The notes beneath the pieces are model-generated. The model was given only the letters and a program-made list of their open reading frames with translations, had not been told where the DNA came from and did not search any database. From Ailanthus altissimus (lineage: Eukaryota; Streptophyta; Magnoliopsida; Sapindales; Simaroubaceae), in NCBI GenBank assembly GCA_946807835.1, contig OX327702.1:7936001-8000000 (forward strand): DNA of 64,000 nt, given 5' to 3'. The translations under genes and the position numbers were made by a program. Shown here piece after piece: positions 22,817 through 60,748 of the stretch. Positions within the stretch are counted from its first letter, which is position 1. Every line of letters begins with the position of its first letter.

Positions 22817-23112
22817 AATGAATTTTGTTAAAGCGTGAGGGATAGGTTGGTGTAATTTGTATTATGCCGGTTAAATATAAGATGAGACAAATATAAGTAA
22901 AAGTATTATCCAATATTACTAAAACGTGAGAATAGTATCAGTAACTTGTATTTGATTATTAGCAAGTTAATCTGGAACACATTTATCCAATATTGCTATA
23001 GCGTGAGGATAAAATGTGTTTAGGATTAGTAGTAAGAGTTGCATAAGATATAATTGACAAGAACTGTCTACCTTTTAGATTTTACAAAGATCAATATTGC
23101 TAAAGCGTGAGG
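22817..23112 (+). repeat. Four copies of the leader motif in the outer copia element
   Basis: Copies at 22817-22840 (degenerate), 22911-22931, 22988-23008 and 23092-23112 share the core AATATTGCTWTAGCGTGAG. The same four-copy arrangement occurs in two related elements (30220-30513 and 43516-43809). The motif lies in the leader before gag, outside any coding frame. Confidence 0.8.
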
Positions 23113-23336
23113 CCCGAGTAGAATGTTGATTAGATCTACTTCTCACTATAAAATTTAAAATGTTTAAATTTATATTTTTTTTGTTTGAGAGGTTTATGGG
23201 AATATGTAAAGTAGCAAAATGGCACTTTTAGATTAAAAAAAATATATACTATTTATATTCATAATCTAAAGCGTTATTAATTGACGTTTTTAAAATATTT
23301 TCACTAACATTTCTTATTTTTTCTAATAAAGATAAG

Positions 23337-24180
23337 ATGGCTTCAATCAACCCATTGGTACGTATACTTGATGCTAACCCGCTAAAAGGTGCCGATAACT
23401 ACTCATACTGGCTAATGAATCTCAAAATTATTTTGAATTCATAAAAGCTTTGATACATAATAGATCAGAAAATACCTAGAGATGTTTTTGAAGCTGCCTC
23501 TAATGAAAAGTTGCAGACTTATCAGATATGGGTCAATGACGATTTGAAAGTCAAGTCGTACATCATCGCCTCAATGTCAAATGAGCTTCGAAGGGAGCAC
23601 GCGCACATGGATAGTGCGAGTAGCGTAATGCTCCATCTGAATTAATTGTTTAAAGATAGATCACAGGTAGAACTGTATAAGATCTCTAAAGCATTTTGTC
23701 AGCTTAAGTTGATTGAAGGTGATTCGGTAAGTCCCTATGTACTTAAGATGATTTTCTACATCGAAAAGTTAAAAGATTATAGATGTCTCTTTGAGTAACA
23801 ACTTAAGGAATAACTTGATTCTCTAGTCTCTGTAAGGGTATTTTGTACAATTCATTATGAACTATAATATGCAATGACTGACTCCAACTTATGCTGAGCT
23901 GCATAACAAGTTACAGACAGCTGAGGATGGTATTAAAAATAGAGGTACGACCTTCATAGTTCAGACTGATGCTTCATCTTTTGTCCTAAAGACTTCTAGG
24001 AAGTATAAAGGGAAAAAGAATGTGAAAAAGACATCATATTTAGATCCTTAGAGATAGGTTGTATTTAAGCAGAAAGATCATAAAAAAAGCAAGGAAAAGT
24101 GTTTCCACTGCAATGATGATAGACACTGGAAACATAACTGTCCGAAGTATATTGCCACATTAAGAAGAACCCATCAGGTA
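23337..24180 (+). pseudogene. Gag of the outer copia element, disrupted
   Basis: The frame opens with MASINPLVRILDANPLKG, the N-terminus typical of Angela/BARE gag, and runs through the ASMSNELRREHAHMDSA segment near 23570. In-frame stops interrupt it, for example in the 'ILNS' segment near 23442 and after 'VMLHLN' near 23645. A CCHC zinc knuckle of the form CX2CX4HX4C is intact at 24100-24141. This is the most complete gag in the long-LTR nest: the other two members have lost its central part. Confidence 0.75.
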
Positions 24181-26219
24181 TTTTTTTATACCTATTATTG
24201 ACATTTTATTAGTATGTGATCCTTCAAGTAGCTAGGTATTAGATATTGCATGTTCTTCTCATATTTAAAATATGTTGCAAGGTTTGAAGAAAATTAGGTA
24301 GCTGCAGTAAGGAAAAGTCCAGCTTTGTATTAGAAATGGTGATTTTCTACAGGTCAAAGCAGTTAAAGATTTTGAATTGATTCTCTCATGTAATCAAATT
24401 TTAATGTTGTATAATTTAAATTATGTACTAAACATTATCAGAAAGATTATATCCCTCCCCGTGTTAGACACTGAAGGCTATCATGTTTTTATTCAGAATT
24501 GTTCCTTGTATTTATGTGATGCAAATAATATTTTATTAGCTGAGTGTCAGTTAATGAATGGTCATTATATTTTGAATACAACAAGAAATATCTTAAATGC
24601 ACAGGTAACAAAAGTAGTAGTTTAAAAACTTTGAATAACATGAGATTGAGGCAAATGAGATTATGTCATATAGGTGTAAAACGTCTAACCCGTCTAGTTA
24701 GGGATGATCAGATATGTGGTCCTACCATAGAACCCTTACTAATTTGTGAATCTTGTATTTGAGGGAAGATAACTAAATCTCTTTTTATAGGTGTTAGACA
24801 CTAAGCCACAGATTTATTAGAACTAGTATACAGTTATGTATATGGTCCAACGAATAACACTGTTATGGGTGGATTTCGATACTTTATCATCTTTATCAAT
24901 GATTTATCACGAGATATAAACATATGTATCTTATAAAACACAAGTCAGAAACCTTTGAAATATTCAAAGCATTTCGACAAGAAGTAGAGAAACAAACTGA
25001 TATATATATATATCAAATGTCAGGCGGTGAATACATGAGCAGTGAATTCACAGCTTATTTAAAAAAGAATAAGATTCTCGCTCAATACAGTCCTCTAGGT
25101 ACTCTTTAACACAATAGTATTTTAGAGATAAGAAATCGGACTTTATTAAATGTGATCTAATCAATGATGAGCTTCACTGATCTTCTGAAATATCTATAAG
25201 GCTATGCTCTAGAAACCATTACTCACTTATTGAATAGAGTTCCATCGAAAGCCATATCTACTACTCCGTATGAGATATAGATTAGCAGAAAATTGAGTCT
25301 TAAGTATGTTAAGATTTGGAGCTGTCTTACTTATGTAAAAGTTATACAACAAGATAAACTTGTACCAAAATGGTATAAGTATTGATTTATTGGATATCCC
25401 AAACATTCTATGGGATATTTATTCTATGATTCAGAAAAATTAAACGTGCTCATTGCTCGTAATGCCACATTCCTAGATAAGCAGTTTCTCATAGGCTATG
25501 GAAATTATAGAAGGATTAAACTTGATGAAGTCAATCAAGATATTAATGAACCAACGATGGAATTTTAGACTCAATCAAGTGAAATACCTTTAATACACTC
25601 TCCACGTAGGTCAAAATGATGTCAAGACCACCTATCAGGTATGAAATGATGCCTAAAGGTATTTTTGACATTTTCTTAGTTGAATAAAAAGATCCTATGA
25701 CCTATAGAGAGGCGATGTTAGACATCGATTCAGAAAAATGACAAGAAGCCATGAAATCCAAAATTGACTCTATGTATGTCAATTAAGTCTAGGACTTGGT
25801 TGAGCTTCATAAAGAAATTGTTACTATTAGTTGTAAATAAGTTTACAAGCGAAAACATGGGTTCGATGGAAAGGTAGAGACATTTAAAACCTAATTGGTA
25901 GCGAAAGGTTATACTCAACGATCTGGCATTAACTATGAGAAACTTTTCCACTAGTTGCCATGCTAAATTTGATTTATATTCTATTGGCTATTACTGCATA
26001 CTATAATTTTAAGATCTGATAGATAAATGTAAAGACGGATTTCCTAAATAAAAATCTTGAGGAAGAGATTTACATGAAGCAGCCTGAAGGTTTTACATCT
26101 AGCCTGACTTCTAATCTGGTATGCAAATTGAAGAAGTATATTTGTGAACTTAAGTAGGTTTTCCGAAGTTGGAATCTTTATTTTGATGAAGTAATCAGAG
26201 GATCTAATTTTATCAAAAA

Positions 26220-26246
26220 GAAGAAGAAGAAGAAGAAGAAGAAGCG
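26220..26246 (+). repeat. (GAA)n microsatellite inside pol
   Basis: About eight perfect GAA triplets between the RT 'FDEVIRG' and 'NGS' equivalents. It probably arose after the element lost function. Confidence 0.85.
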
Positions 26247-27259
26247 TGTGTGAACAAAATGATCAATAAGAGCATAATTATCTTTCTTGTTCTTTATGTA
26301 GATGAAATACTCGTTATCGAAAATAATATTGGTATGTTACAATTAATCAAAACTTATTTAAGTAAGAATTTCTCCATGAAATATTTAGGAAAGACTTCCT
26401 ATATACTGGGTATAAAACTTTATAGAGATTGAGCTAAGAGGCTGATAGGACTCTCTTAATTTTGTACATAAAAAATATTCTTGAAAGGTATAACTTTGCT
26501 AATTGTAAAATAGTTAATGTATCTTTCAAATATGGCATTCATCTTTCTAGGAGAATGTCTCCTAAGACGAAAGATGAAATAGTTAAAATATCTAACATAC
26601 CATATGCATCAGTTGTAGGCAACCTAATGTCCATCATGTTATGTATAAGATGTGACATCAGTATCGCTATAAGTGTTACGAGCCAGTATCAGTCTGATAT
26701 AGGCAATGACCATTGGATGGTCATGAAATATATCCTAAAATATCTTAAGAGTACAAAGGATAAATTTTTGATTTATGGAGAAAGTGACTTACAAGTGAGA
26801 GGATATATTGATTTAGACCTCTAATCTGATTCAGGTGATAGAAAACGTGTTTCTTATTTGGATATGTGTTTCTTCTTAATAATGCCATAATTAATTGAAA
26901 ACGTGTCAAGCAAGCATCCACAACTAATTCTACCACAAAGGCAGAATATATTACAACTTAAGAAGCTGTAAAGAAAGCAGTATGGATATGCAAATTTGTC
27001 GTAGAGCTCGAAGTAATCCCAAGTTTAGTAGATCCTATCTTGCTATTTTGTGGCAACAATTGGGTAATTGCTCAAGTAAAAGAGTCAAGTGCATACCAAA
27101 AGTCTAAGTATGTGGAGATAAAATACAACATAATTAGAGAAATCTTGGTTAGAAGAGATGTAATAGCTTATAGAGTAGATTCTATGGATAATATAGCAGA
27201 CCCGCTCACTAAAGCTTTAACTCCTAAGGTGTTTGAGAAATATATAGAGGTCACGAGTA

Positions 27260-27264
27260 TTAAA
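27260..27264. repeat. Target-site duplication, left copy (TTAAA)
   Basis: TTAAA directly precedes the TGTTGG start of the 5' LTR and is repeated at 36838-36842 directly after the CCAACA end of the 3' LTR. A perfect 5-bp duplication is typical for copia integration. Confidence 0.95.
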
Positions 27265-29452
27265 TGTTGGAGCTGGTGCTCACGTGCCATTCCAATATTG
27301 TATGAATATTAATTGTTAATATTTATACAATAAACATTTCGAATAAAGATTGTTAATATCATATTAATATGGTATAATGCTTGTAACATTACAGACATTG
27401 TTTGATCTGAAAGAGTTCAGATCTGGTCTAAAGGAGTTTAGATCAGAACTAATAGTTAGCAAAGCTGAGAGTTATAAATGCTAAAAGTTAGCACTGTTAA
27501 GAGTTAGCAGGTTATAAGAATCAGCGAGGTCTAAAGAGTTAGAACCTTGTCTATAATGGGACAAAGACCTGAGAGTATACTTGTAATGATATAGTTGCAA
27601 AGAGTTGCAATAGGAGTTAAGAAATATCATTATGTAAGTATGTCTCAAACATAATGTTCCTGATCTATAATCACTAATGCGGGTCTATCAGTGATTCACT
27701 TTATATAGATTAGTGTATGTCTATATCTGACTGGTTCAGATGGTTGTTCTTAGCTGACCATGAGCTTAGAGCTTGTATAGGCATGCGGGTATCCAGTCAG
27801 GACTGGATACTGAACAGACTTATGAGGACCCCAATAGATATCCTATGACACCGTCAAAGGAAGGTCCTCTCGAGTTGAGTAGTATTCGTGGTCCTTTGAC
27901 CTGAGCGCCACGGTGGTCTTGTGAGTGATCCATCATGCTTTGGTTCCACATATGTCAGAGACCTTTCATGGTCTGACCGCTATGTGTCGCTGGGTATGGT
28001 CCGATGCTCATGGAGTCCGGTGTGCGTAGATACGGGATCCGTCAGCTTACGTAGGTAAGTTGTATATCCGATGCTCCGAGATTGTATTTCATAAAGTCTT
28101 GTGGCCACAAGCATAAACCCGGGAAAAGAGTTTCCCACAGGGTTAAACAATATAGCAAAAGTGTTTGCGTATATTGTTTATCGAGATACGAATCTGGAGA
28201 TAAGATTATGGATGAGCAAATAGGGATTTGACGGTGCTGATCTATATCCCTGCACATCCAGGATATAAATGATGGAAGGATTATACGTATACGTTATGAC
28301 CTCAACTTGTATGGTCTGACACGCTGATTTGTAATATTCGTAACGTGTGCGTGGGGCATCGATTACGGATTAATGGAACAGTTCCATTTGACAAATCGGG
28401 TGTAGACCTAGAGAGTCCCAATATGAAATGTACTCTTTGAGCACTTGGGCAGTGTACCGTATTGAATTGTTCAATACAGTATAATTCAGCAATTACTAAG
28501 GTTACGTTAACTAAAGTATGTGGTTAAATTGGTGGGACCCACTTTAGGTTAACTTGGTAACCGAGTAAGGATATAGTAGTAATTTCACTTTATGATTATT
28601 TAATTGTTAAATAATTAAAATAAATATTTATTTATTTAATTGTTAAATAAATTAATTTAACATAACTAAGGTTAAAAGTTAACCAAGTGGTTAAGTTAAG
28701 TTAACCTTACTTAAAGGTTAAGTAAAGGTTAACCTAACCATGGTTAAGTTAGTTAACTATGGTTAAATTAATTAAATATTTATTAACTTAAAGGTTAAGT
28801 TAAAATAATCTAACTAAGGTTAAATGTTAACTAAGGTTAGGTTAAGCCAAATGAAATGCAAATGAAATTCAAATTAGTTTGGAATTAATGCATTAGTATA
28901 TAAAGTGAAATGAAATTCAAAATTCATAATTGATTTAGTTTTTTAGGTTTTGCATTTTGGGAGCCAATTCAATTTGAGAAATTGAAATTGTTTGTTTTGT
29001 GTTTTAAGTGTTAGAACAACAAAACAAATTGAATTAATGGTTACTAAATGTAATAACTAAAAACAAGATTTGTTTTATTTATTCAAGAGTTGAATAAAAG
29101 GAAAAACAAATTTAATTAAGTTAAATGGTTTAACTTTGTAAAATGTTTAAGAGTTAAACACAAATGCTGGATTAAGATGCTGCCATTCTAGACAATCAAA
29201 CCCACCCTTGTTGATTGCTAGAATTGATCAAAGATTCATTTCATGGTGGACTTCAAGAAAATTAATCCAAAGGCTTCATTGGTGATATTTCTCAATCTCG
29301 AATTTCAGATTAATCAAATGTTATTTTCTGTGTTCATTATATGTAATCTTCCGCTGTGCACATGTATGTATGAGATATGTATATTGTTTGTATGATGAAC
29401 ACAACCCACATGCAAGAGCACACTATAGTAAATCCCCCCATATAACCCAACA
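27265..29452 (+). repeat. 5' LTR (2188 bp)
   Basis: Starts TGTTGGAGCTGGTGCTCACG and ends ATATAACCCAACA, the TG...CA ends of an LTR, with a short inverted repeat TGTTGG/CCAACA. The offset to the 3' copy is 7385 bp throughout. The 71-codon minus frames at 28042-28257 and 35427-35642 are the same chance frame in the two LTRs. A GGTTAA-rich segment lies at about 28667-28845. Confidence 0.95.
28667..28845. repeat. GGTTAA/TTAACC-rich segment in the LTR (also at 36052-36230)
   Basis: About 180 bp crowded with GGTTAA and its complement in both orientations, for example 'aaggttaaaagttaacc' at the start. Copies are irregularly spaced and can pair with one another. The segment lies in the central to distal LTR, and the same block recurs in the 3' LTR. 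Confidence 0.75.
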
Positions 29453-29454
29453 AA

Positions 29455-29466
29455 TGGTATCAGAGC
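29455..29466 (+). other. Primer-binding site (initiator tRNA-Met type)
   Basis: TGGTATCAGAGC begins two bases after the end of the 5' LTR. It is complementary to the 3' end of plant initiator tRNA-Met and is the usual PBS of copia elements. Confidence 0.93.
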
Positions 29467-29579
29467 AATTTGTGTTGTTATGGGTGATTTTTTAGTGTTA
29501 GCTAAGTGTTGGCTAAGTTGTATGACAAGTTCCGGAGCTGTTGGGATGCATTTTAAGTGTTAAAAATGCAAACCAGTGA

Positions 29580-29870
29580 AAAACAGCACCTGGAACGCTG
29601 CAGCGCTAAGGTCCAGCGCGGCAGCGTTCATATGAACGCTGGAGCGCTGGGTGTATGACGCCCCAGCGCTGGATAGGCGCAGGGGCGCTGGGTGTTTGGC
29701 GCCCTAGCGAGGGAAGCACTGCTTCCAGCGCCCCAGCGCTGGTAAGACAGCGCCGCAGCGCTGAGGCTTGTGAAGCCCTAGCGCGGCAGCGCTATGAGAC
29801 AGCGCCGCAGCGCTGAGGCTTATGAAGCCCTAGCGCGGCAGCGCTACAAGACCAGCGCCGCGGCGTTCTT
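29580..29870 (+). repeat. GC-rich AGCGCT-repeat block in the leader
   Basis: In otherwise AT-rich sequence this block is strongly GC-rich and holds eight copies of the palindrome AGCGCT, plus many CAGCGCCGCAGCG and CTAGCGCGGCAGCGCT variants. A 52-bp unit is repeated in tandem at 29745-29796 and 29797-29848. It follows the PBS and precedes gag. A smaller related block lies in the same place in the element at 40799 (42995-43095), and related sequence lies inside the LTRs of the unrelated Tork-like element (56065-56200). Confidence 0.85.
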
Positions 29871-30219
29871 ACACTAAAAAAAAAAAAAGAGTAAAATCTT
29901 TTTATTTTTCCGCATGTGGGGGTTTATGAGATGTAATAATAAGGGTTATTAGTTTACATGATAAACCAAGAAAATAATATTTTTATTATTTTATTTATTT
30001 TTGTAACCACAATGGGGGCCCCACTGGTGGGGTTTAGTTGTGCTTGTGCAAAAATGAATAATTGATTGAGAATAACCTCTCATGTGATGAGAGCATATAA
30101 TATGAAAGCCTGTAATTAAAATCTCTCTTAATTAGATTGAAATTTATTATATTATGTGATAATATTTTAAATGGTCCGTCTTGTCAATACGGTGTGAGAT
30201 GGGTCACTATGGTCTTTCC

Positions 30220-30513
30220 CAATATTGCTTTAGCGTGAGGGATTTGGTCGGTGTGACTTGGTCTAATGCCGGTAAAACATAAGATGAATCAAATATATGC
30301 GAACATATTATCCAATATTGCTTTAGCGTGAGGATAGTGTCAGTAACATATATTTGAGGATTGATGAGTTAATCTGAAATACAGTTACCCAATATTGCTT
30401 TAGCGTGAGGGTAATGTGTATTTAGGATCAGTAGTAAGAGTTGTATGAGATACAATTGACAAGAGTTGTCTATCTGTTGGATTTATAAAGGCCAATATTG
30501 TTTTAGCGTGAGG
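30220..30513 (+). repeat. Four copies of the leader motif in the complete element
   Basis: Copies at 30220-30240, 30313-30333, 30390-30410 and 30493-30513. The core AATATTGCTTTAGCGTGAG is perfect in the first three; the fourth has one change (TTTT for CTTT). Start-to-start spacing is 93, 77 and 103 bp. The same spacing pattern (about 92, 77 and 104) is seen in the element at 43516-43809. Confidence 0.9.
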
Positions 30514-30719
30514 CTGGAGTAAAACCCCAATGGGATCCACTTCCCGCTGTATAGTTTAAAATATTATACTATCTTATCCCGTTTGAGAGATTAAAGGGAT
30601 TAAGTAAAGCAGTGGGAGGGCGTTTTTTAGATTAAAAAATGTATAACAGTTATACCCATGATCTAAAACGTAATTTATTAACGATAAAGAAATGTTCTGC
30701 TACGCATCTCCTATTTTGT

Positions 30720-30798
30720 CTTATAGAGATAAGATGATTATCTTATAGAGATAAGATACTTGTCTTATAGAGATAAGATTGTCTTATAGAGATAAGAT
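30720..30798 (+). repeat. Four copies of a 16-nt self-complementary unit before gag
   Basis: CTTATAGAGATAAGAT occurs at 30720-30735, 30742-30757, 30764-30779 and 30783-30798. Each copy has CTTAT and ATAAG arms that can pair. The last copy overlaps the gag ATG at 30797-30799. The related elements have only a single 'gataagatgg' or similar here, so the array is an expansion private to this element. Confidence 0.85.
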
Positions 30799-31020
30799 GA
30801 GTACGAGCAATCCGTTACTAATCTTGAACAAATACCAATAACTATAGGGTACTGAATAAAATATGTAAGGCTTGCTTATGAATCTAAGAATAGTTCTAGA
30901 TTCAATAATATTTGATATTACTAAACCACATATAGAGAAAAGTCATAATGGAAAGTGTTTCCACTGTTATAAGGTTTGAAATAGTAAATGTTACTATTCA
31001 TCGCACCTTCACTTAAGAAA
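30797..31020 (+). pseudogene. Gag remnant with large internal deletion
   Basis: The frame starts MSTSNPLLILNK, matching the N-terminus of the outer element's gag, but breaks within about 15 codons. By about 30945 the sequence already reads KCFHCYK, the zinc-knuckle start. In the outer element the same two points are about 760 bp apart; here they are about 150 bp apart, so roughly 600 bp of central gag is missing. No capsid could be made. Confidence 0.7.
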
Positions 31021-34000
31021 GATTGACTCATTAGATATCTGTTTGACCAAAAAATTAACATTTCATTAGCATTTGATGTTAACTCTGCAAGAGTATGAGA
31101 TACCGCTTGTTATTATCATATCTGCAAGATGTTGCATGATTTGAGAAATGCTTGATTACTAAGAAATGAGAAGTTCAGCTTCACGTAGGTAATAGAGATT
31201 TCCTGAACGTGGAAGCCGTTAAGACTTCACAGTTACTTCTTATTTCTAGTAACAGCATTAATGTTGTATAATTACTATTACGTGCCAAACATTATTAGGT
31301 AAATCATATCACTCCCTGTAGTTGACAGAGAGGGTTATCATAAATATATTGGAAATAGTTCCTTGTGATAATGATACTGATTTACTAACTGAATGTCAGT
31401 TAATGAATGGCTGTTATATCTGATATACAACAGGAAATGTTATAAATGTAGATGTGAACAGAATATATAGTATTTCAGCAACTTAAATAATAATGAACAG
31501 TGGTATATATAAGATTAGGTCATGTAGTCGTGAGACGACTATCCTAGCTGGTTAAGGATGGTCAGATATTTGATCTGACTATAAAACATTGACTAGTTTA
31601 TGAATTATGAATTCAAAAGAATATGACCGAATCTTTATGTAGGTGTAAGACGCCAAGCCACTGGTTTATTAGATCTGGTACATATAGATGTATTTAGTCC
31701 AATAAATCTTACTGTTATAAATGATTTCGATACTTCATTGTCTTTATAGTGATTGTCACTATATGGACATGTGTTTCTAGGAAACGTAGGTCAGAATAAT
31801 TTCGAAGTGTTCAAAATGTTCTGACAATGAAAGTAAAGAAACAAACCCTTATGTATATTGAGTACTTGCGATTAGATCGAAGTAGTTTATACATAATCAG
31901 TAAATTCATAAATTATTTAAAGAGAATATGATTCTCTCTCAGCATAGTCCTCCAAATACTCCTCAACATAAAGATGCTTAGGAAATGAGGAATCGGACTA
32001 TATTAGATACAGTCTGATTGATATTGAGAATCGCTGATCTTCTAAAATATCTATGAGGTTATACTTTAGCATCTGCTACTCACTTATTAAATAATTCCAT
32101 AATCGTTCCTACTACTTTATATGAGATATAGACTAAATAGGAAATGAGTCTTAAGTATGTTAAGAATTAGTGTTATTCTGTTTTCATAAGAGTTATGCAA
32201 CAGAATAAACTTGTATCCAACGGTACAAGTATCGGTTCATTTAGTATCCTAAGTGTATAATGGGATACCAATTCTATAATTCAGATGAACGAAATATATT
32301 CGTTTCTCATGATGTCACATTCCTAGAGAAAGCGTTTCTCATGGATTGTGGAGATTATAGAAAGATTGAACTTGATGAAGTCAATCTAAATATTGATGAA
32401 CCAACGATGGAATCTTAATTTTAAATGAGTGAAATACCTTTAACACACTAAGTTCATAAGTCCAAAAGGATATCAAGGCCATCATTTAGGTATGTTTGAT
32501 ACTTGAATGTACCCTTGATATTTTCTTAGTTGAAGAAATGGATCCTTTAACTTATGGAGAGATGATGTTTGACATCGATTCGGAAAAATAAAAAGATATC
32601 ATAAAATTTGAAATTGACTCAACGCATGACAATTAAGTCTAAGACTTAGTTGAGCTTCCTGTAGAAATTGTTTCTATCAGCAGTAAATCAGTTTACGCAG
32701 CGGAAGCAGTGTGGGCCCTATCTGAAGGAATGGTCCTTCATGGCCTGACTAATGTTGAAAGGTTACACTCACAGATCTAGGATCTATAATGAGGAAACCT
32801 TTTTCATCAGTAACCATGCTAAAGTCAATTTAGATTTTGTTGATGACAAGATACCATAAAATTCGAATTTGACTCTAAGTATGACAATTAAGTCTAGGAC
32901 TTAGTTGTGCTTCCTGTAGAAACTGTTTCTATCAGCAGTAAATCAGTTTACGCAGCGGAAGCAGTGTGGGCCCTATCTGAAGGAATGGTCCTTCATGGCC
33001 TGACTAATGTTGAAAGGTTACACTCACAGATCTAGGATCTATAATGAGGAAACCTTTTTCATCAGTAACCATGCTAAAGTCAATTTAGATTTTGTTGATG
33101 ACAAGATACCATAAAATTCGAATTTGACTCTAAGTATGACAATTAAGTCTAGGACTTAGTTGTGCTTCCTGTAGAAACTGTTTCTATCAGCAGTAAATCA
33201 GTTTATGCAGAGGAAGCAATGTGGGCCCTATTTGAAGGAATGGTCCTTCATGGCCTGACTAATGTTGAAAGGTTACACTCAGAGATCTAGGATCAATAAT
33301 GAGGAAACCTTTTTCATCAGTAACCATACTAAAGTCAATTTGGATTATGTTGGCTATTGCTGCATATTATGATAATGAGGACTGGCTTATAAATGTAAAT
33401 AAGGTGTTCTGGGAAGTATATCTCCAACAAGAGATATGCAGAGAACAACTTGATGTTTTTGCATCCAAGCCTAACTTCTAGTATAATGTGCAAACTGAGG
33501 AAGTCCATTTATGGACTTAAGTAGATTTTTCCAAAGGTGGAATCTTTGTTTATATGATGAAATCAGAAAGTCTGGTTTTATCAGGAATAAAGAGGAAGCG
33601 TGTGTGTTCAGAAAGGGCAGTGGGAGTATAATTATCTTTTTAGTTCTCTAAAGTGGAAAGTATATACTCAATATTGGAAACGATGATTGGAGTATAGCAA
33701 GTAAATCAGATAAGTGTTATCTGTGTTAAGAACTTCTTCATAAAAGATTTGAGAGAGACTTCCTATATACTAGGTATAAAGCTTTATGGAGATATAGCTA
33801 GGAAGCTAATAAGACTCTCTCAAACTTCGTATATAGAATAAGTCCACGAAAAGGTACAACTTCATTGACTGTAAGACAGTTAAAGTCCCTTTTAGAAGTG
33901 GCATTCATCTTTCTTAGAGGAAGTGTCCTCGGGAAGAAGATGAGAGAGTTAGAGTGTCTAACATCTCAGATGCATTAGCTAGAAATAGATTAATACATAC

Positions 34001-34630
34001 CGTCTAATGTACGAAATCTGGATTTAGATGGTTGTAAGTGTTACAAGCTGGTATCTGTTAAATCTAGATCATGACCATTAAATGGTTGTGAAACATATCA
34101 ATATATACTTGAGAAGTATATAGGATAAGTTTATAAAATATGAAGAAAGTTTCTTACAAAAGAAGGGATACACATTCAGACTTACGTCTGAATTGAATGG
34201 TAGAAAGTCTACATCTAGTTATGTGTTTCTCTTTATCAGTACCGGAGCTAGTTAGATGTGTGTTAGTAAATGTCCATGGGTAATTCTGTCTTGGAGGTAG
34301 AATATGTTGCGGCTTGAGAAGTCAGCAAAGAAAGTACTATGGATATTCAAAATTAATTGCAGAGCTTTGAATAGTTCCAAGCTCAGTGGATCCTATCCCA
34401 CTATATTGCAAAATAACGGTAATTGCTCGAGCCGAGAAGCCATAAGGCACACCAGTATTCTAATCATGTGAACTCTGAAAATCACATAATTAGAAAGTTC
34501 TTGGCAACAAGAGTTGTAATAAAAATCTAGGGAATAATCCTTGGATGTAGCGAACCCCCCTAAGCCTAAACTCCTATAGTGTTTGAGAAACACGTGGAGT
34601 GTATTGATATGAGATACCAGTACGAATGGC
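31021..34630 (+). pseudogene. Pol remnant of the complete element, non-coding
   Basis: Collinear with the outer element's pol: protease/GAG-pre-integrase about 31060-31700, integrase about 31700-32420, RT about 32590-33990, RNase H about 34050-34630. Stops occur every few dozen codons; the longest recognisable clean piece is 60 codons at 33299-33481, the start of RT (IWIMLAIAAYYDNEDWLINV). The YVDD region near 33640-33700 is not recognisable. RT also carries a 255-bp tandem triplication (32596-33360). Confidence 0.7.
32596..33360 (+). repeat. Tandem triplication, 255-bp unit, at the start of RT
   Basis: Copies begin at about 32596, 32851 and 33106, with 'gtgggccctat' at 32711, 32966 and 33221, exactly 255 bp apart. 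255 is a multiple of three, so the repeat would keep the frame (85 codons), but the surrounding frame is already broken. Copies 2 and 3 are closer to each other at their 5' ends than to copy 1. Confidence 0.9.
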
Positions 34631-34634
34631 ACTG

Positions 34635-34649
34635 AAGCAAGTGGGAGTT
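34635..34649 (+). other. Polypurine tract
   Basis: AAGCAAGTGGGAGTT lies directly before the 3' LTR. The same AGCAAGTGGGAG sequence precedes the 3' LTR of the element at 40799-49416 (47262-47275), and a close variant precedes the outer element's LTR (36861-36875). It is the plus-strand primer site of reverse transcription. Confidence 0.85.
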
Positions 34650-36837
34650 TGTTGGAGCTGGTGCTCACGTGCCATTCCAATATTGTATGAATATTAATTG
34701 TTAATATTTATACAATAAACATTTCGAATAAAGATTGTTAATATCATATTAATATGGTATAATGCTTGTAACATTACAGACATTGTTTGATCTGAAAGAG
34801 TTCAGATCTGGTCTAAAGGAGTTTAGATCAGAACTAATAGTTAGCAAAGCTGAGAGTTATAAATGCTAAAAGTTAGCACTGTTAAGAGTTAGCAGGTTAT
34901 AAGAATCAGCGAGGTCTAAAGAGTTAGAACCTTGTCTATAATGGGACAAAGACCTGAGAGTATACTTGTAATGATATAGTTGCAAAGAGTTGCAATAGGA
35001 GTTAAGAAATATCATTATGTAAGTATGTCTCAAACATAATGTTCCTGATCTATAATCACTAATGCGGGTCTATCAGTGATTCACTTTATATAGATTAGTG
35101 TATGTCTATATCTGACTGGTTCAGATGGTTGTTCTTAGCTGACCATGAGCTTAGAGCTTGTATAGGCATGCGGGTATCCAGTCAGGACTGGATACTGAAC
35201 AGACTTATGAGGACCCCAATAGATATCCTATGACACCGTCAAAGGAAGGTCCTCTCGAGTTGAGTAGTATTCGTGGTCCTTTGACCTGAGCGCCACGGTG
35301 GTCTTGTGAGTGATCCATCATGCTTTGGTTCCACATATGTCAGAGACCTTTCATGGTCTGACCGCTATGTGTCGCTGGGTATGGTCCGATGCTCATGGAG
35401 TCCGGTGTGCGTAGATACGGGATCCGTCAGCTTACGTAGGTAAGTTGTATATCCGATGCTCCGAGATTGTATTTCATAAAGTCTTGTGGCCACAAGCATA
35501 AACCCGGGAAAAGAGTTTCCCACAGGGTTAAACAATATAGCAAAAGTGTTTGCGTATATTGTTTATCGAGATACGAATCTGGAGATAAGATTATGGATGA
35601 GCAAATAGGGATTTGACGGTGCTGATCTATATCCCTGCACATCCAGGATATAAATGATGGAAGGATTATACGTATACGTTATGACCTCAACTTGTATGGT
35701 CTGACACGCTGATTTGTAATATTCGTAACGTGTGCGTGGGGCATCGATTACGGATTAATGGAACAGTTCCATTTGACAAATCGGGTGTAGACCTAGAGAG
35801 TCCCAATATGAAATGTACTCTTTGAGCACTTGGGCAGTGTACCGTATTGAATTGTTCAATACAGTATAATTCAGCAATTACTAAGGTTACGTTAACTAAA
35901 GTATGTGGTTAAATTGGTGGGACCCACTTTAGGTTAACTTGGTAACCGAGTAAGGATATAGTAGTAATTTCACTTTATGATTATTTAATTGTTAAATAAT
36001 TAAAATAAATATTTATTTATTTAATTGTTAAATAAATTAATTTAACATAACTAAGGTTAAAAGTTAACCAAGTGGTTAAGTTAAGTTAACCTTACTTAAA
36101 GGTTAAGTAAAGGTTAACCTAACCATGGTTAAGTTAGTTAACTATGGTTAAATTAATTAAATATTTATTAACTTAAAGGTTAAGTTAAAATAATCTAACT
36201 AAGGTTAAATGTTAACTAAGGTTAGGTTAAGCCAAATGAAATGCAAATGAAATTCAAATTAGTTTGGAATTAATGCATTAGTATATAAAGTGAAATGAAA
36301 TTCAAAATTCATAATTGATTTAGTTTTTTAGGTTTTGCATTTTGGGAGCCAATTCAATTTGAGAAATTGAAATTGTTTGTTTTGTGTTTTAAGTGTTAGA
36401 ACAACAAAACAAATTGAATTAATGGTTACTAAATGTAATAACTAAAAACAAGATTTGTTTTATTTATTCAAGAGTTGAATAAAAGGAAAAACAAATTTAA
36501 TTAAGTTAAATGGTTTAACTTTGTAAAATGTTTAAGAGTTAAACACAAATGCTGGATTAAGATGCTGCCATTCTAGACAATCAAACCCACCCTTGTTGAT
36601 TGCTAGAATTGATCAAAGATTCATTTCATGGTGGACTTCAAGAAAATTAATCCAAAGGCTTCATTGGTGATATTTCTCAATCTCGAATTTCAGATTAATC
36701 AAATGTTATTTTCTGTGTTCATTATATGTAATCTTCCGCTGTGCACATGTATGTATGAGATATGTATATTGTTTGTATGATGAACACAACCCACATGCAA
36801 GAGCACACTATAGTAAATCCCCCCATATAACCCAACA
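34650..36837 (+). repeat. 3' LTR (2188 bp)
   Basis: Same length, ends and order as the 5' LTR. I compared the two block by block and saw no difference. It is followed directly by TTAAA (36838-36842). Confidence 0.95.
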
Positions 36838-36842
36838 TTAAA
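36838..36842. repeat. Target-site duplication, right copy (TTAAA)
   Basis: Matches 27260-27264. After it the outer element resumes with ATCATCATAAATGATACTAG. Confidence 0.95.
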
Positions 36843-37554
36843 ATCATCATAAATGATACTAGAGCAGGTGGGAGTTGCTAGAAATTGTGCTTATGTGTCA
36901 TTCAAATTGTTGTATGCATTTTTATTTATTTAATATTTATACAATGAACATTTATTTTATTCGTCAATTAGTATTATTATTTATATGATAAGAGACTTGT
37001 AACTTTTCGGACTTTATAGGTCTAAAAGAGTTTAGATCTAATCTAAAAGAGTTTAAGTCAATGCTAAAGATAGCAATTCTAAAGAGTTAGAACTTGTCTA
37101 AAATAAGGATAAAGACCCGAGAATACTATAGTAATGACATAGTTACAAAGTATTACAAATGGTGCTAAAAAATGTCATTGCATAATATATTCTCAAAAAC
37201 CTCGTTCCTAATCTATGGTTACCAATATCACTCGATCGGTATTCCTTTAGGATTAATGTATATCCATATATGAATTATTTATATGGTTAGTCTTAGCAGA
37301 CCATGGGTTTAGCAAAAGTTCGTATGGGCATGTAGGTATCCAGTAAGTACTAGATACTAAATAGACTTATAAGGAACTCTAATAGATATCCCATGAGGCC
37401 GTCAATAGAGGGTCTTCTCAAGTTGAGTAGTATTCGTAATCCTTTGACCTGAGCGCTACAGTGGACTTGTGAGTGATCCACCATACTTTGGTTCTATGCA
37501 TATCAGATACCTTTCATGGTTTGACTGCTGGGTGTCGTTGGGTGTGGTCCGATG
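36843..37554 (+). mobile_element. Outer copia element resumed: polypurine tract and 5' part of its 3' LTR
   Basis: AGAGCAGGTGGGAGT (36861-36875) is the polypurine tract and TGCTAGAAATTGTGCTTA from 36876 is the LTR start. The order of LTR landmarks (aagagtttagatctaatc near 37028, 'gttgagtagtattcg' near 37419, 'ggtccgatg' at 37546-37554) follows the family. At 37555 a minus-strand element begins and the LTR stops. A piece that could be its distal end is at 49417-49921. Confidence 0.7.
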
Positions 37555-39618
37555 TGTAAAGAATCAACTGTGTACAAGTGTATGCATGTGGTAGTGTGTT
37601 TATTACAAAATACGCATCTAATACATATTTTAACGCAGAGAAATTATAAAATGTACAATTAACACACTAATCATATATTAATCAAATTAATATATAAATA
37701 ATAAAATTGAGAAATTACCAATACGTGTAACGTTTTACACGTTTTCTTTTGGAGTCCGCCTAGAGTTATACACGTTGTTAATTCTAGTTATCAACTTGGT
37801 GAGCTTGATAATTTAGAATAACAACTCCTTGATCCAACATATGATTAACTCTTTAATCCCAAATGGTCGAGTGAACCTTTTGCTCTTTCTTTCTCGCAGT
37901 AATGAAGAGAAGAAATAGAAGCAACAATTGCTTCTCTTACTGTTTAGAGCAAAAATAGAAATCAGAAATGAAATAACCCTTTAAATTTCCTTTTGTTTTT
38001 GTTTCAATTTCTCTCACCTTTCCGTTTCAACAATTTCACACATATATCTCATTTCATTAAAAAATTAATATTATAATATAATATTCATATAAATTCCATA
38101 GTGGCAAAAAATAATAATAAACAAAAAAAATAATATTATATATATAATGCATGACAACTATCATACATTATATATATTATATTATTATTATAATATTATA
38201 AAATAATATATTTTATTAGTGATATTTTGATTATTTAACATTTAAATAATCAAAGTATAAAATGACCATTTTACCCCTTATGCATAGTTACTAAGTATAC
38301 CCTTTAGCGGGTCTCACTAAATCCCACACTTAGGTAAACTCAATCGAGGGTCTACAATGCGTCATGTGTCACTTTACAATTAGTGAATAATTATTATTAA
38401 CTAATCGTTGTATTTAACACTTAAATACGCATATACACGTATTTTCGTGGTAACGTTGGATGTTACTGGATTAAACAATTTAATCTAGTACTCTACCCCA
38501 GTGTACAACGAGTACACTCCATATCGCGGGACTTCCTAAGTCCATGCCCGATTCGTCAAATGGAACTATTTCATAAGTCCGTGAGCAATGTCCTACGCAC
38601 ACGTCACAAGTATTACAAATCAGCGCGTTGAACCATACAAGTTAAGGTTACAACGCATACGTATAATCCTTCCATTATATATATCTTGGATGTGCGGAGA
38701 CATAGATCCACACCGTCAAATCCCATATGCTCATCCATAAACCTATCTCCAGAATGATATCTCAATTGAACAATATGAGCAAAACTCTTTGCTATATTGT
38801 TTAACCCCATAAAAACACCTTTTTCAGGTTAACTGCTTACGGCCATAAAACTTTTCTGAGATACTATCTTGGGGCATCTAGATATATCACTCCCTATGAA
38901 AGTTGACAGATCTCATATCTGCATACAACAGACTCCATGAGCATCGGATCATACCCAACAACACTCAGCTGTCAAACTATGAAAGGTCTATGACAACCGT
39001 AGAACCAAAGTATGGTAGATCACTCATAAGCCCACCGTGGTGCTTAGGTCAAAGGACCACGTATACTACTCAACTCGAGAGTACCTTCCATTGACGGTAA
39101 CATAGGATGTCTATTGGAGTTCTTATGAGTCTGTTCAGCACTCAGTCCTAATTGAATACCTGTATGCTTATACAATCTCCAAGATCCTGGTCAGCTAGGA
39201 ATGACCAACTGTACCCTACAGATATAGACATACATTGATTTATATAAATTAATAAGATCTACTAACAGACCTGCGTTAGTAGAAATAGATCAGAAACTAT
39301 ATATTTGAGAACATGCTTGTATAATGACACATCCTAGTAACCTATTGCAACTCTTGCAACTATATCATTATTAGCATATTCTGAGGTCTTTGTCCTGTTA
39401 CAAATAATGTTCAAACTTTTGGAATATTTGCTATTTCTTAGCACTAATCTAAACTCATTTAGACTATATCTGAACTTCTTCAAATAGTACAGAGTCTGTA
39501 GCATAACAAGCATTAAACAATATAATTAAAAGGTAATTAGCGATATAATAAAATATACTATGTATAGATATTAAATATTTATACAAAACTGGGATGGCAC
39601 ATAGGCACAACCCTAACA
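37555..39618 (-). repeat. LTR of the minus-strand element (2064 bp)
   Basis: TG...CA ends on the minus strand. Family landmarks appear as complements, for example 'actactcaactcgagag' at about 39063 and 'accgtcaaatccca' near 38712. Frames at 38613-38810, 38903-39094 and 39464-39685 are chance frames in the LTR. Confidence 0.8.
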
Positions 39619-39632
39619 ATCTCTCACTTGGC

Positions 39633-40798
39633 CTAGTGCTAATCACTGTGGTATCTAATACCCATAGACTCCGCGTGTTTCTCAAACACCTTTGGAGTTA
39701 AGGCTTTGGTAAGTGGGTCCTCTGTATTATTTACAGAATCTATTCTCTAAATAACTACATCTCTAATGGCCACAATTTCTCTAATGATGTGGTATTTTGC
39801 TCCACATGCTTAGACTTATGGTGTGTTCTTGGCTCCTTTGCTTGTGCTATGACCCTATTGTTGTCACAAAATAATGGGATAGGATATGATGAACTTGGAA
39901 CTATTCCAAGCTCAGCGAAAAACTTACAAATCCAAACAGCTTACTTTGCAGCTTCAGAACCTGCAATGTACTTTACCTTTGTGGTTGAGTCAGCTATGGA
40001 CCCCTGCTTGGTACTCTTTCAGCTCACTGTGCCTCCATTGAGAGTAAACACATATCTAGATGTAGACTTTCTATCATCTAGATCAGACTAAAAGTCTGAA
40101 TTCGTGTATTCTCTCACTTGAATATCATTATCTCCATAAATGAGAAACTTATCCTTCGTACCATTAAGCTATTTTCGGATATGTTTAACTGCCATCCAAT
40201 GTTTGTCACCTGAATCAGATTGATACCGGATTGTAACACTTATAGCCATACTGATATCAGGACTCATGTACATCATAGTATACATCAGGCTACCAACAGC
40301 TGATACATATGGTATGTTAGACATTCTAACCCTATCATCTTTCGTCTGAGGCAACATTCTCCTAAAAAGATGAACACAATGTCTAAAAAGTACATTTATT
40401 GTCTTACAATTAGTAAAACTGTACCTTTTTAAGACGCTATCGATGTATGATGTCTGAGAGAGTCCAATTAGCTTCCTAGCTCTATCTCTATAGAGTTTTA
40501 TACCTAGTATATAGAAAGCTTCTCCCAAGTCTTTCATAAAGAAATTCTTATTCAGATAGCTTTTCGTGGATTGCAACATACTAATATCATTCCCAATGAT
40601 CATTATGTCATCCACATAGAGAACTAGGAAGACGATCATGCTCCCATTGACCCTTTTGTACACACAAGCTTCGTCCTCATTTTTTATGAAACGAGACTTT
40701 CTGATTATCTCATCAAAAAGATGATTCCAGCTTTAAGAGGCTTACTTAAGTCCATAAATGGACTTCTTCAGCCTACATATCAGACCAGAAGTGTACAT
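39633..40798 (-). pseudogene. RT and RNase H of the minus-strand copia element
   Basis: The clean frame 40169-40663 (164 codons) holds FLVLYVDDIMIIGND, so the YVDD active site is intact, then KDLGEAFYILGIKLYRDRA, LSQTSYIDSVLKRY and SAVGSLMYTMMY...PDIS, the C-terminal half of copia RT. Upstream on the minus strand (40664-40798) the 'YGLKQASRSWN' region has two TAA stops. RNase H (about 39640-40090) has a KSKHVE motif and stops. This is the best preserved RT of the long-LTR nest, though truncated on its N-terminal side. Confidence 0.8.
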
Positions 40799-42886
40799 TC
40801 CTCAATGTACATATACTTTACGTGTCATCCCTCAATGTACATATACTTATGTATTTATATAAGTGTACATTCTCATTAAATCGTTAATACCTATTTATAT
40901 AGTACTATGCAATGTAACATTACAGACATTGTATAATTTGAAGGAGTTCAGATCAAATTTAAAGGAGTTTAGATAATAGCTTATAGTTAGCCTACTGAGA
41001 GTTATAAATGCTAAATGTTAGCACAGCTAAGTGTTAGCTGGTAATAATACTTAGCAAAGATCCAAGAGTTTGAGCCTTGTCTGTAATGGGACATAGACCT
41101 GGGAATATACTAGTAACTGCATAGTTGCAAGAGTTGCAATCGGGTGCCAGGAAATACTAGTTGCGCAAGTATATTCTCAAATAATTGTCCTTGATCTATT
41201 TCTACCGATGCAAGTCTGTCGGTGGATACCTTTATATATAGATCATATATATCGTACCTATAGGGTATAGATGGTCGTTCTTAGCCGATCGTGAGCTTGG
41301 AGCTCGTATTGAGATAGAGGTATTCAGTTAAGACTAGATATGGGACAGACTCACGAGGGCCTAAGATAGACACCCTATGTAAGCCGTCAATAGAGGGTTC
41401 TCTCGAGTTGAGTAGTATACGTGGTCTTTTGACTTGAGTACCACGGTGGACTTGTAAGTGATTCATCATACTTTGGTTCCATACATGTCACAGACCTTTT
41501 ATGGTGTATGGTCCGATGCTTATAGAGTCTAGTGTGTATAGATATGGGATCCGTCAGCTAGCATAAGAAGTTAGATATCCAGATGCTTCGAGACTGTATT
41601 TCAAAAAGTCTTGTGGCCACAAGCATTAATCCCAGAAAAGAGTTCCGCTAGGGTGGAACAATATTGCAAAGGAGTTTGCACATATTGTTCGGTGAGATAC
41701 AAGTCTAAAGATTTAACATGGATGAGCTCTAGAAGATTTGACGGTGATGATCTATATCCCCGCACATCTAAGATATCATGACAGAAAGACTATACATATG
41801 CGTTGTAACCTCAACTTGTGTGGTTCAAGGTACTGATTTGTATATTTGTGACGTGTGTATGGGGCAATGTTCATAGACTCATAGAATAGTTCTATTTGAC
41901 AAATCGGGCGTGGACCTAAGGAGTCCCGCAATATGGAGTGAACTCATTATGTACTAGAGTAGCATGCTGAATTAAATTATTTAATCTAGCAATATCCAGC
42001 ACTATCATAGAAATACGTGCGTGTCTGTACTTAAGTGTTAAATACAATAATTAGTCAATAATTGTTATTTACTAATTGTATAATGACACACGGTGCATTG
42101 TGGACCCTCAACTGAGTTTATCCAAATGTGAGATTTGGTGGGACCCACTAGAGGGTAGACCTGGTAACTATTTATGAAAGATAAAATAGTCAATTCACAC
42201 ATTGATTATTTAATTAATATCTTATAAATAATCAATTATATCTTATTATAATATATTATTAATAGTGCCAAATAGTTGGCATCCATTATTATTATTTTAT
42301 ATTATTATTAATATTATATTATTATTTTATTTATATTATATATATATGTAACGAGATGTGTGTGTGTGTGAAGTTAAGTGTGTGTTTTGTGTGTTACGGG
42401 AAAAGGAGGAGAAGAAATGAAAAGGTTCCATTTCTTTCATTTGTCCCGAGAAGAAGAAAGAAAAAAAAAAAGAAAGGGAAAAATGAAATTGTTTCATTTT
42501 TTTTCATAGTACCAAAAGAAGCAATTGTAAATTGCTTCGAATTTTGATTTCCTTTTCTCTAAAGAAAAGGAAAAATACACACACCCAACCATTTTATGAG
42601 TTTAAGAGTTAAACTCAGTGCTGATTATAGGGCTGTTGTTCTAGCTTGCCAAGTCCACCGAGTTGGTGACTAGAACTGCTGACTAGTTGGTCTCTATGTG
42701 GACTCCGATGATATATATGTATAACTATACACGTTCAAGGGATTTCTCAACCTTTCTAATATACTAATGTGATTAATATATTTTATTTATTATTTTTATT
42801 GTATGTTTAAATGCTTTCGCCATGTTTAATTTTAGGCAATAAACACAATTGCACATGCGTATACCCACATATATTATTTCTCAACA
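40799..42886 (+). repeat. 5' LTR of the second element, 5' end lost
   Basis: From about 40823 the sequence follows the 3' LTR ('gtcatccctcaatgtac' onward) to its end TCTCAACA at 42886. The first ~20 bp (TGTTAAGGCTGATGCTTA in the 3' copy) are absent. Instead the stretch 'CTCAATGTACATATACTT' appears twice (40801-40818 and 40831-40848). TA-rich simple sequence lies at 42240-42350. Confidence 0.8.
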
Positions 42887-42890
42887 AAAA

Positions 42891-42902
42891 TGGTATCAGA
42901 GC
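42891..42902 (+). other. Primer-binding site of the second element
   Basis: TGGTATCAGAGC, four bases after the LTR end CAACA; initiator tRNA-Met type, identical to the PBS at 29455-29466. Confidence 0.92.
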
Positions 42903-42994
42903 CATTTAGGATATATTTTAGTGTTGTTTGAGTGAATAGATGCAAAAGGCCCAATGAAAATGGCGCATTTCAAGTGTTGAAACAGGTATGCCAA

Positions 42995-43095
42995 AGAGGG
43001 AGCACTGGGCGCTGCAGCGCCAGAGGGCTGGTGCCGCGGCATTGGAGGTTTGACCTCTCAGCGCTACAGCGATGTAATCTGGCGCTGCGGCGGTA
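42995..43095 (+). repeat. GC-rich patch in the leader of the second element
   Basis: Short GC-rich stretch with GGCGCTGCAGCGCC, GCCGCGGC, CAGCGCTACAGCG and GGCGCTGCGGCGG. It occupies the same place after the PBS as the larger block at 29580-29870. It lies in an 88-codon frame (42932-43198) that is not a known protein. Confidence 0.75.
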
Positions 43096-43515
43096 TACCG
43101 TTCACTTGAATAGTAGCATTGAACAGTGTTTTACTGTTCACAACTACAGTGATTTTAAACAGTGTTTCAAAATTAATTTTACATGTGTAGATTTATGAGA
43201 TATAGTGATAAAATTTATTAGTGTACATTATAAATCAGGGTTTATAAGATGCAAAATAAGAGTTATCAGTCTGTATTATAAACCAGAATTAATTTTTCTA
43301 TGTTAGTAACCACAATGGGAGCTCTACTGGTAGAGGTTAGTTGTGTTTGTATAGAAAAATTAATTAATTGAGAATCACCCTCTCCATGGCATAGAGACCA
43401 ATGATATAAACAAAAATATCTCTTAATCAGATTGAAAAATATTACATTATGAGATAATATTTTATTCTAATTTGTCTTGTCAATACGGTGTTAGACGAGT
43501 CACGTCGGCCTTTTT

Positions 43516-43809
43516 TAATATTGCTATAGCGTGAAGGACTTAGTCTGTTAGGCTTGGACTACATCGATTAAACAAGAGGTGAGGCAAATATATACGAAAG
43601 TATTAACCAATATTGCTACAGCGTGAGGGTAGTATCGGTAGCATATATTTGATCATTGACAAGTTAATCTGAAATACACTTACCCAATATTGCTACAGCG
43701 TGAGGATAAGGTGTATTCAGAATCAAGTGGTAAGAGTTGCATGAGATGCAATTGACAAGTGTTGTCTACCTATTGGGTTTACAAAGGTCAATATTGCTAT
43801 AGCGTGAGA
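43516..43809 (+). repeat. Four copies of the leader motif in the second element
   Basis: Copies at 43516-43536, 43608-43628, 43685-43705 and 43789-43809 with core AATATTGCTAYAGCGTGA. Spacing is 92, 77 and 104 bp, within one base of the spacing in the complete element, although the intervening sequence has diverged. Confidence 0.88.
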
Positions 43810-49921: not shown

Positions 49922-55950
<6,029 letters not shown>

Positions 55951-56064
55951 TGTGAGAATATTGATTAAAAATTATCGAAATATGATTTGGAGATCAAGCC
56001 AAGTGCGTAGGGTGCGCACGGATCGAAGACGGACGCGAAAGGAGGCAAAAAAAGAAGAAGGGCA

Positions 56065-56200
56065 CACCAGGCGCCAGCGCCGCTACGACCAAGCATGGAC
56101 GCTGCGGCACCCAGAACAGAACCTGAGCGCTGTAGCGCTCAGCAGAAGCGCGCCAGCGCTGGAGCGACGAGATTCCAACGCCGCAGCGCTGGATGCAGGA
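56065..56200 (+). repeat. GC-rich AGCGCT block inside the Tork-like LTR
   Basis: Holds four AGCGCT palindromes and words such as GGCGCCAGCGCCGC and CGCCGCAGCGCTGG. It lies upstream of the TATA box, that is in U3. The 3' LTR keeps only one AGCGCT (60908-60913) because about 70 bp of the block is missing there. The words are shared with the leader block of the long-LTR elements. Confidence 0.8.
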
Positions 56201-56305
56201 ACAGTATCCTGAAATTATGAAACTTCCTAATTTCGTCTCTCATTTGCTTCAAGACTCCCTAATACGACTCCCACACTTATAGGGAAAACCTAGGACATCC
56301 CAAGG

Positions 56306-56317
56306 CCTATATAAAGG
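56306..56317 (+). promoter_or_regulatory. LTR promoter TATA box
   Basis: CCTATATAAAGG, repeated in the 3' LTR at 61031-61042. Transcription would start shortly downstream, before the CTTTGTGA-rich segment. Confidence 0.65.
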
Positions 56318-56339
56318 CTATCAATTGGCTTGTAAACAC

Positions 56340-56500
56340 ATCTTTGTGATCAAGTAAGAGATCTTTGTGATCAACTAGAAATCTTGACAATCTTTGTGAT
56401 AAACAAGAGATCTTAGTGGTTCTTTGTGAGAGACAATCTCTAAAGTGAAAGAGAGAGTTTTCTTTGTGATCTTTCTTATAAAAGGCATACTTTGTGAGTG
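56340..56500 (+). repeat. CTTTGTGA-rich segment of the LTR
   Basis: At least six CTTTGTGA words, several inside 'atctttgtgatcaa', in 160 bp downstream of the TATA box. Also present in the 3' LTR at about 61064-61225. It would lie in the 5' untranslated part of the element's RNA. Confidence 0.75.
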
Positions 56501-56692
56501 CCTTAAGATTCATAGTAAGAGAAGAGTGTGATCTTAATCCGCCGTGAACGTAGGCAAGTTGCCGAACCACGTAATTCTTTGTGTGTTCTTCTTCTATCCC
56601 TTTCTCTATTTATTTCTTAATAACTTATTTTGCGTTATTATATTACTTAGGTGAATTGTTTTGCTTATTTGTGTGCTTCCACTTCAACAAAC

Positions 56693-56703
56693 TGGTATCA
56701 GAG
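56693..56703 (+). other. Primer-binding site of the Tork-like element
   Basis: TGGTATCAGAG, three bases after the LTR end, complementary to initiator tRNA-Met. Confidence 0.9.
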
Positions 56704-56721
56704 TTTTGGTTTTAAGCAGAC

Positions 56722-59353: not shown

Positions 59354-59383
59354 TAGCACAAGGTTTTACTCAGAGAGAGGGAG

Positions 59384-60679: not shown

Positions 60680-60734
60680 AGGTGACTGAAGATGTGAAAA
60701 TGAGAGATCGAGTTACTTTGTGGATGATTTTAAA

Positions 60735-60748
60735 TCAAGGAGGGGATT
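60735..60748 (+). other. Polypurine tract of the Tork-like element
   Basis: CAAGGAGGGGATT-type tract directly before the 3' LTR start TGTGAGAATATT at 60749. Confidence 0.85.

Follow-up and report, generated by a model that had tools for sequence, protein, structure and literature searches.

We report that three related long terminal repeat (LTR) retrotransposons, found in a 64,000-nt stretch of the Ailanthus altissimus genome (GCA_946807835.1, contig OX327702.1, positions 7,936,001–8,000,000; hereafter the window), each carry a short motif four times, at near-constant spacing, between the primer binding site (PBS) and gag. The motif copies would form the tips of four RNA hairpins, they are retained by a young element without usable genes, and their two loop letters differ jointly between lineages. 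We consider it probable on balance that the array serves this Ty1-copia family as a cis-acting RNA element, with tips most likely read by Gag for RNA selection and perhaps for dimerization. The family is assigned to Ty1-copia by the LTRs and PBS of one of the three elements (element 2) and by copia-type domains in a relative (L019), whose open frames match the Pfam models Retrotran_gag_2, gag_pre-integrs, Pol_BBD and RVT_2 (one of two RVT_2 pieces scores under the Pfam cut-off) and whose gag frame is not intact.

The motif array and its predicted hairpins

The window holds 12 motif sites at 0–3 mismatches, against 0.03 expected by chance at up to three mismatches, and all lie on the + strand. 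They are the sites of a preliminary description of this DNA, every one of which is real, with starts given one position too low (the first, four too low). Its constant spacing of about 93, 77, and 103 bp is borne out by measured values of 91–93, 77, and 103–104 bp (91/77/104 in element 1, 93/77/103 in element 2, 92/77/104 in element 3). Calling the motif nearly unchanged suits element 2, with one change in 64 letters, and is too strong for element 1, where sites 1 and 2 have three mismatches apiece. When any base is allowed at the two loop positions, no further site with fewer than five mismatches occurs on either strand of the window, the next-best sites having five.

A search of the genome (939 Mb in 37 contigs; all results are from this one genome) returned 11,271 matches (5666 + 5605) at up to two mismatches, compared with six (3 + 3) for the reversed pattern. 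The array was present in all 20 regions fetched around exact matches (19 with four sites, one with three); array context was checked in those 20, most of the 11,271 matches not having been inspected singly. The earlier expectation that the motif is not scattered outside such elements held in these regions and in the window, where none lies elsewhere.

We also sampled copies anchored on sequence neighboring the array, and named the samples TT, AA, and AC by their loop letters. Four sites in register were found in 18 of 20 TT copies (three sites in the other two) and in 14 of 20 AA copies (at least two sites in 18 of 20), and nine of 10 AC copies had four sites and one had three. The samples took 20, 20, and 10 places from sets of 40, one of each 40 being the query itself, and they lean to query-like copies because each set comprised the best-scoring of 1649, 2263, and 3563 candidates, respectively. 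Motif pairs at a shorter gap (25–55) numbered three in the genome, in a search that extended no further than the normal spacing. One copy (L031; G000 C2:846694–847594) has a five-site array with an additional 77-bp unit, which points to unequal exchange among hairpins.

Literature searches found no description of the motif, and a two-site match was absent from the viral contigs and prokaryote genomes searched. A known RNA family was rejected as its identity, there being no Rfam match over the sites: Rfam 15 gave no match at gathering score in the window, and on 29440–30800 at E up to 1 gave nine weak matches, none covering motif sites, all lying upstream of them and mostly inside a GC-rich tract. 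This tract (29560–29870), with many AGCGCC/GGCGCT-like units in an AT-rich element, stands between PBS and array, and occurs also at 42960–43100 and in L019 (2480–2690).

The preliminary description had proposed folding the leader RNA, and the minimum-energy structure of 30180–30640 indeed placed all four motifs at predicted hairpin tips (z −3.9). The tip, AAUAUUGCUWNAGCGUGA, would contain a mini-helix (U6–G15, G7–C14, C8–G13) with a UWNA loop above and an AAUAU/UGA internal loop below. A dimer initiation site would expose a self-complementary sequence in a loop; AAUAUU of the core is self-complementary by reading but in the fold sits in the internal loop and one pair. The stems vary in sequence yet pair. 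Across the 86, 90, 86, and 81 of 92 arrays counted at sites 1–4 (more than three core mismatches excluded), the paired fraction was 0.64, 0.86, 0.93, and 0.95, versus 0.63, 0.47, 0.47, and 0.57 for the best slid control. Every one of the nine pairs at site 2 is formed in 91%–98% of arrays; the stem has twelve pairs at site 3 (the bulge position was set after inspecting folds), four plus five at site 4, and four at site 1. Double changes were seen at the third pair of site 2 (C-G 45, U-A 35) and at the third (U-A 44, C-G 10) and seventh (C-G 55, G-U 10) pairs of site 3. With 50-nt flanks (15 copies folded, five TT and 10 others), the tips at sites 1–3 form in the five TT copies with probability 0.89–0.97, against 0.01–0.11 with shuffled flanks. 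We thus read each site as the tip of a predicted hairpin whose stem appears to be maintained by compensatory changes, clearly at sites 2–4 and weakly at site 1; the modeled stems of sites 1 and 4 are less sure than those of sites 2 and 3. Structured leader RNA between PBS and gag is what a packaging signal (psi) requires, and the array is predicted to be such a structure.

Since the stems covary, a role at the DNA level is disfavored. An enhancer composed of four transcription-factor sites would agree with a short repeated motif, and an enhancer in the leader of Drosophila copia is named in the title of a reference within PMC2829016, but the flanking stems pair with compensatory changes and all four sites share a single orientation; we regard this explanation as quite improbable.

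Lineages, gene loss, and loop letters

A first divergence estimate, for which A-type copies had been selected by exact motif match, gave only a modest excess of core over leader identity (∼86% vs. 78%), and on account of that selection we discarded it. With within-lineage decay subtracted, the net divergence in six comparisons among four groups was 0.2%–0.7% in the core (64 letters), 4.2%–18% in stems, and 9.5%–13.2% in linkers; the flanks reached 13%–25.7% upstream and 12.5%–33.8% downstream, the AC group having little flank. In each of the four groups, the commonest base at every one of the 64 core positions is that of the motif.

Inside a lineage, core and linkers decay alike: 1.3% versus 1.6% at A/T columns and 13.2% versus 11.4% at G/C columns in AA, 0.2% versus 1.0% and 10.4% versus 11.8% in AC, and 0% versus 0.5% and 2.3% versus 2.1% in TT. 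Core changes are mostly C:G to T:A (74 of 81). The earlier claim that the motif was kept as the intervening leader diverged is therefore strongly upheld between lineages, and divergence is equal within them. Equal decay inside a lineage together with low core divergence between lineages argues that the replicating RNA needed the motif and that the host did not keep it; conservation appears to be confined to replicating lineages, with inserted copies apparently leaving the motif unprotected.

Coding decay, asserted earlier for all three elements, was verified for element 2; for element 1 we have only the 20 stops in a trial translation of 23340–24200, and for element 3 only an LTR identity of 83.2%. 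Element 2 sits within the 3′ end of element 1, and its two LTRs are identical across 2188 bp. The proteins of L019 match it only in fragments, with changing frame and many stops, and L021, a close copy of element 2, aligns with L019 at 72%–74% identity in two pieces spanning the coding region, the second extending into the LTR. None of nine TT copies (L020–L028), chosen for intact motifs as element 2 was not, has a forward open frame of at least 150 amino acids. Seven of the nine have an LTR pair of ∼2.2 kb (98.9%, 99.5%, 99.95%, 99.95%, 100%, 100%, and 100% identity); L020 has no LTR pair, and the pair of L028 spans only 200 bp. Element 2 is a non-autonomous LTR element, a recent insertion without usable genes. 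As TT copies inserted recently despite earlier gene breakage, their proteins would have been supplied from elsewhere.

High-copy LTR elements without usable genes are known as large retrotransposon derivatives. The copies described here resemble them in copy number and in lacking usable genes but differ in that a ruined gag-pol is still visible in element 2. The reverse transcriptase region of element 2 contains a 255-bp unit in three tandem copies (32588–33352); other copies have two (L021, L022, L024, L026, L027) or three (L023, L025).

The preliminary description had offered packaging, dimerization, or translation as the motif's role. The evidence gives good support to a cis-acting RNA signal, and translation is disfavored because a gene-less, lately inserted family retains the tips. 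Internal entry, shunting, or repression at gag would fit an array directly upstream of that gene, but element 2 and its copies have kept the core through recent insertions with broken genes, and we give a translation signal very little credence. A young branch without proteins has near-unchanged tips, and the tips are therefore probably a tag by which RNA is picked for copying.

We report as new that the two loop letters are alike at all four sites and switch jointly between lineages (TT, AA, AC). Every one of the 78 sites that could be read in the TT sample had a TT loop. In the AA sample the loop was AA at 64 of 69 sites, and in the AC sample, with 39 sites, it was AC at 33 and AT at six. 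Counting AC and AT as one class, 10 of 92 arrays are mixed, and none combines TT with an A-type loop; five are among the 50 anchored arrays, each mixed through one GA or AG, and five among the other 42 (L011, L015, L032, L039, and element 1). Genome-wide, neighboring pairs were TT-TT in 1165 cases, TT-A in one, A-A in 616, and AA-AA in 128, with AA followed by AC/AT in four; mixed pairs were counted in one order only (TT then A, AA then AC/AT). No neighboring pair in the genome has G or C at loop position 10 in both members. A motif-masked leader tree placed TT copies in a single clade, most AA copies in another, and AC-type copies in two groups, with L045 (AA at all four sites) among the AC-type copies and L011 and L032 looking intermediate. 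The tree covers 58 of the 92 arrays, arrays with lost sites and 18 TT copies (by hand) being omitted, and support values were not considered.

Both short exchange between sites and selection for equal tips by a changed reader fit the agreement of loops across an array. Exchange bears on a further possibility, that the motif has no function and is alike through shared descent and exchange between repeats. Unequal exchange does occur, as the five-site array and the three short-spaced pairs attest, and could also account for the four like loops. However, linkers between the same sites have diverged to the extent given above, the stems are not homogenized, and the motif has no protection in inserted copies, all of which makes absence of function extremely unlikely.

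Coordinates and neighboring elements

Table 1. Features of the three elements, in window coordinates
Feature	Position	Strand	Remark
Element 1, four motif sites	22821, 22912, 22989, 23093 (22821..23111)	+	loop letters AA/AA/AT/AA
Element 1, zinc-knuckle-like CX2CX4HX4C in gag	24100..24141	+	pattern scan
Element 2, target-site duplication TTAAA (5 bp), left	27260..27264	.	
Element 2, whole	27265–36837	+	LTR pair
Element 2, 5′ LTR, 2188 bp	27265..29452	+	
Element 2, PBS, TGGTATCAGAGC	29455..29466	+	
Element 2, motif core starts	30221, 30314, 30391, 30494	+	motif search of window
Element 2, hairpin 1 (predicted)	30217..30242	+	core 30221–30238, 4-bp stem
Element 2, hairpin 2 (predicted)	30305..30340	+	core 30314–30331, 9-bp stem
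Element 2, hairpin 3 (predicted)	30379..30421	+	core 30391–30408, 12-bp stem, one-base bulge
Element 2, hairpin 4 (predicted)	30482..30523	+	core 30494–30511, 4+5 bp flanking 3x3 internal loop
Element 2, 3′ LTR	34650..36837	+	
Element 2, target-site duplication TTAAA, right	36838..36842	.	element 1-like sequence picks up again behind
Element 3, PBS	42891..42902	+	
Element 3, four motif sites	43517, 43609, 43686, 43790 (43517..43808)	+	loop letters AT/AC/AC/AT

The window has other LTR-like pieces of related elements (4784–5998, 9656–10909, and, inverted, 38070–40795). Upstream of element 1, 146 bp are duplicated in tandem (22017–22332). Repeated pieces ∼4.7 kb apart at 55947–61412 (162 and 503 bp, 88%–93% identity), with a PBS-like word at 56696, are perhaps the LTRs of a further element. 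At G000 C14:19650896–19673390, four same-strand gag matches spaced 7424, 7445, and 7425 bases look like a tandem run of elements with common LTRs. An RVT_2 family search scored 150 of 39,352 candidates and was not used further.

A possible reader of the tips

The readings that remain are RNA signals for mobilization in trans: packaging or dimerization through Gag, which we prefer, host-mediated export, or some step in reverse transcription. On the preferred reading, genomic RNA would show four hairpins between PBS and gag, each with one invariant tip on a stem of free sequence. The family's Gag would recognize the tips and so pick genomic RNA for virus-like particles, and the same recognition may also dimerize that RNA. 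For their packaging, gene-broken relatives such as element 2 would depend in trans on the Gag of a coding relative, presumably a helper with intact genes, and we propose that they keep the tips because such packaging demands them. Retention in elements mobilized in trans, a further mark of psi, is seen in element 2 and its copies.

Several results weigh against this proposal. The third pair of site 3 is a C-A mismatch in 30 of 86 arrays, and at site 1 pairing over six pairs is 0.64 versus 0.63 when slid by −1, with four of the six pairs forming. When flanks were crossed between sites (53 of 62 arrays, eight ungapped pairs), the own partner was favored clearly only at site 2; the effect was weak at site 3, and sites 1 and 4 showed no such preference. 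Among 12 sites folded singly in short context, only site 3 beat shuffles (z of −3.8, −3.9, and −2.3 for its three copies, 0.43 to −1.46 for the remaining sites). With 50-nt flanks, site 4 was unformed in all five TT copies, and results varied among the 10 other copies, L038 forming all four sites and the poorest copies a single one or none. Lastly, a CX2CX4HX4C knuckle was found in element 1 alone among the four stretches scanned, and not in L019, L011, or L018.

A host protein might instead read the tips as an RNA export or stability element by which unspliced element RNA leaves the nucleus, in the manner of the retroviral constitutive transport element. Gene-less copies would need export too, repeated identical tips suit a host RNA-binding protein, and the present evidence does not separate a host reader from Gag binding. 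The loop letters differ, however, among lineages within one host genome, better suiting a reader encoded by the element, and we think a host reader rather unlikely. Gene-less copies would equally need a priming or strand-transfer signal for reverse transcription, for example one making long-range contact with the PBS region, and the array of element 2 lies 766 bp beyond its PBS. Priming is not known, however, to call for as many as four equal tips at fixed spacing, and this role seems unlikely.

For packaging or dimerization by Gag, the nearest known system is BARE1/BARE2 of barley, likewise Ty1-copia, in which BARE2, lacking Gag, is packaged in trans together with BARE1 and dimerization and packaging signals are reportedly conserved (PMC3735527). 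The available part of that report describes no array of four equal tips, and element 2 differs in that pol is broken as well as gag. The nearest kind of signal is the GACG-tetraloop hairpins of alpha- and gammaretrovirus leaders, which reportedly have a role in packaging and aid dimerization (PMC516450). These too are fixed-loop hairpins in a leader, but they differ in tip sequence, structure, and element class, and no lineage-wise switching of loop letters is described in the accessible portion of that source. Among plant Ty1-copia elements, Sireviruses likewise have short non-coding motifs that are conserved, namely, CGG-CCG palindromes in LTRs, copies of the PPT, and junctions (PMC2829016). 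No hairpin array between PBS and gag is described in the part of that paper at hand, and the Sirevirus repeated motif was rejected as the identity of ours, since letters and location differ from the CGG-CCG LTR palindrome.

We tentatively raise the possibility, itself doubtful, that the loop letters work as a recognition code: within a lineage all four tips would have the same pair, loop and Gag would change together, the code would limit packaging across lineages, and gene-less parasites such as element 2 would carry the code of their helper.

Little is known about RNA selection for particles in plant LTR elements, or about how their gene-less relatives are provided for in trans. The array provides a candidate tag that is short, repeated, and separable from stems and genes, and that occurs naturally in lineage-specific versions two letters apart. 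The approach taken here, in which a young element with long-broken genes serves as a neutral yardstick, could reveal cis signals in other retrotransposons.

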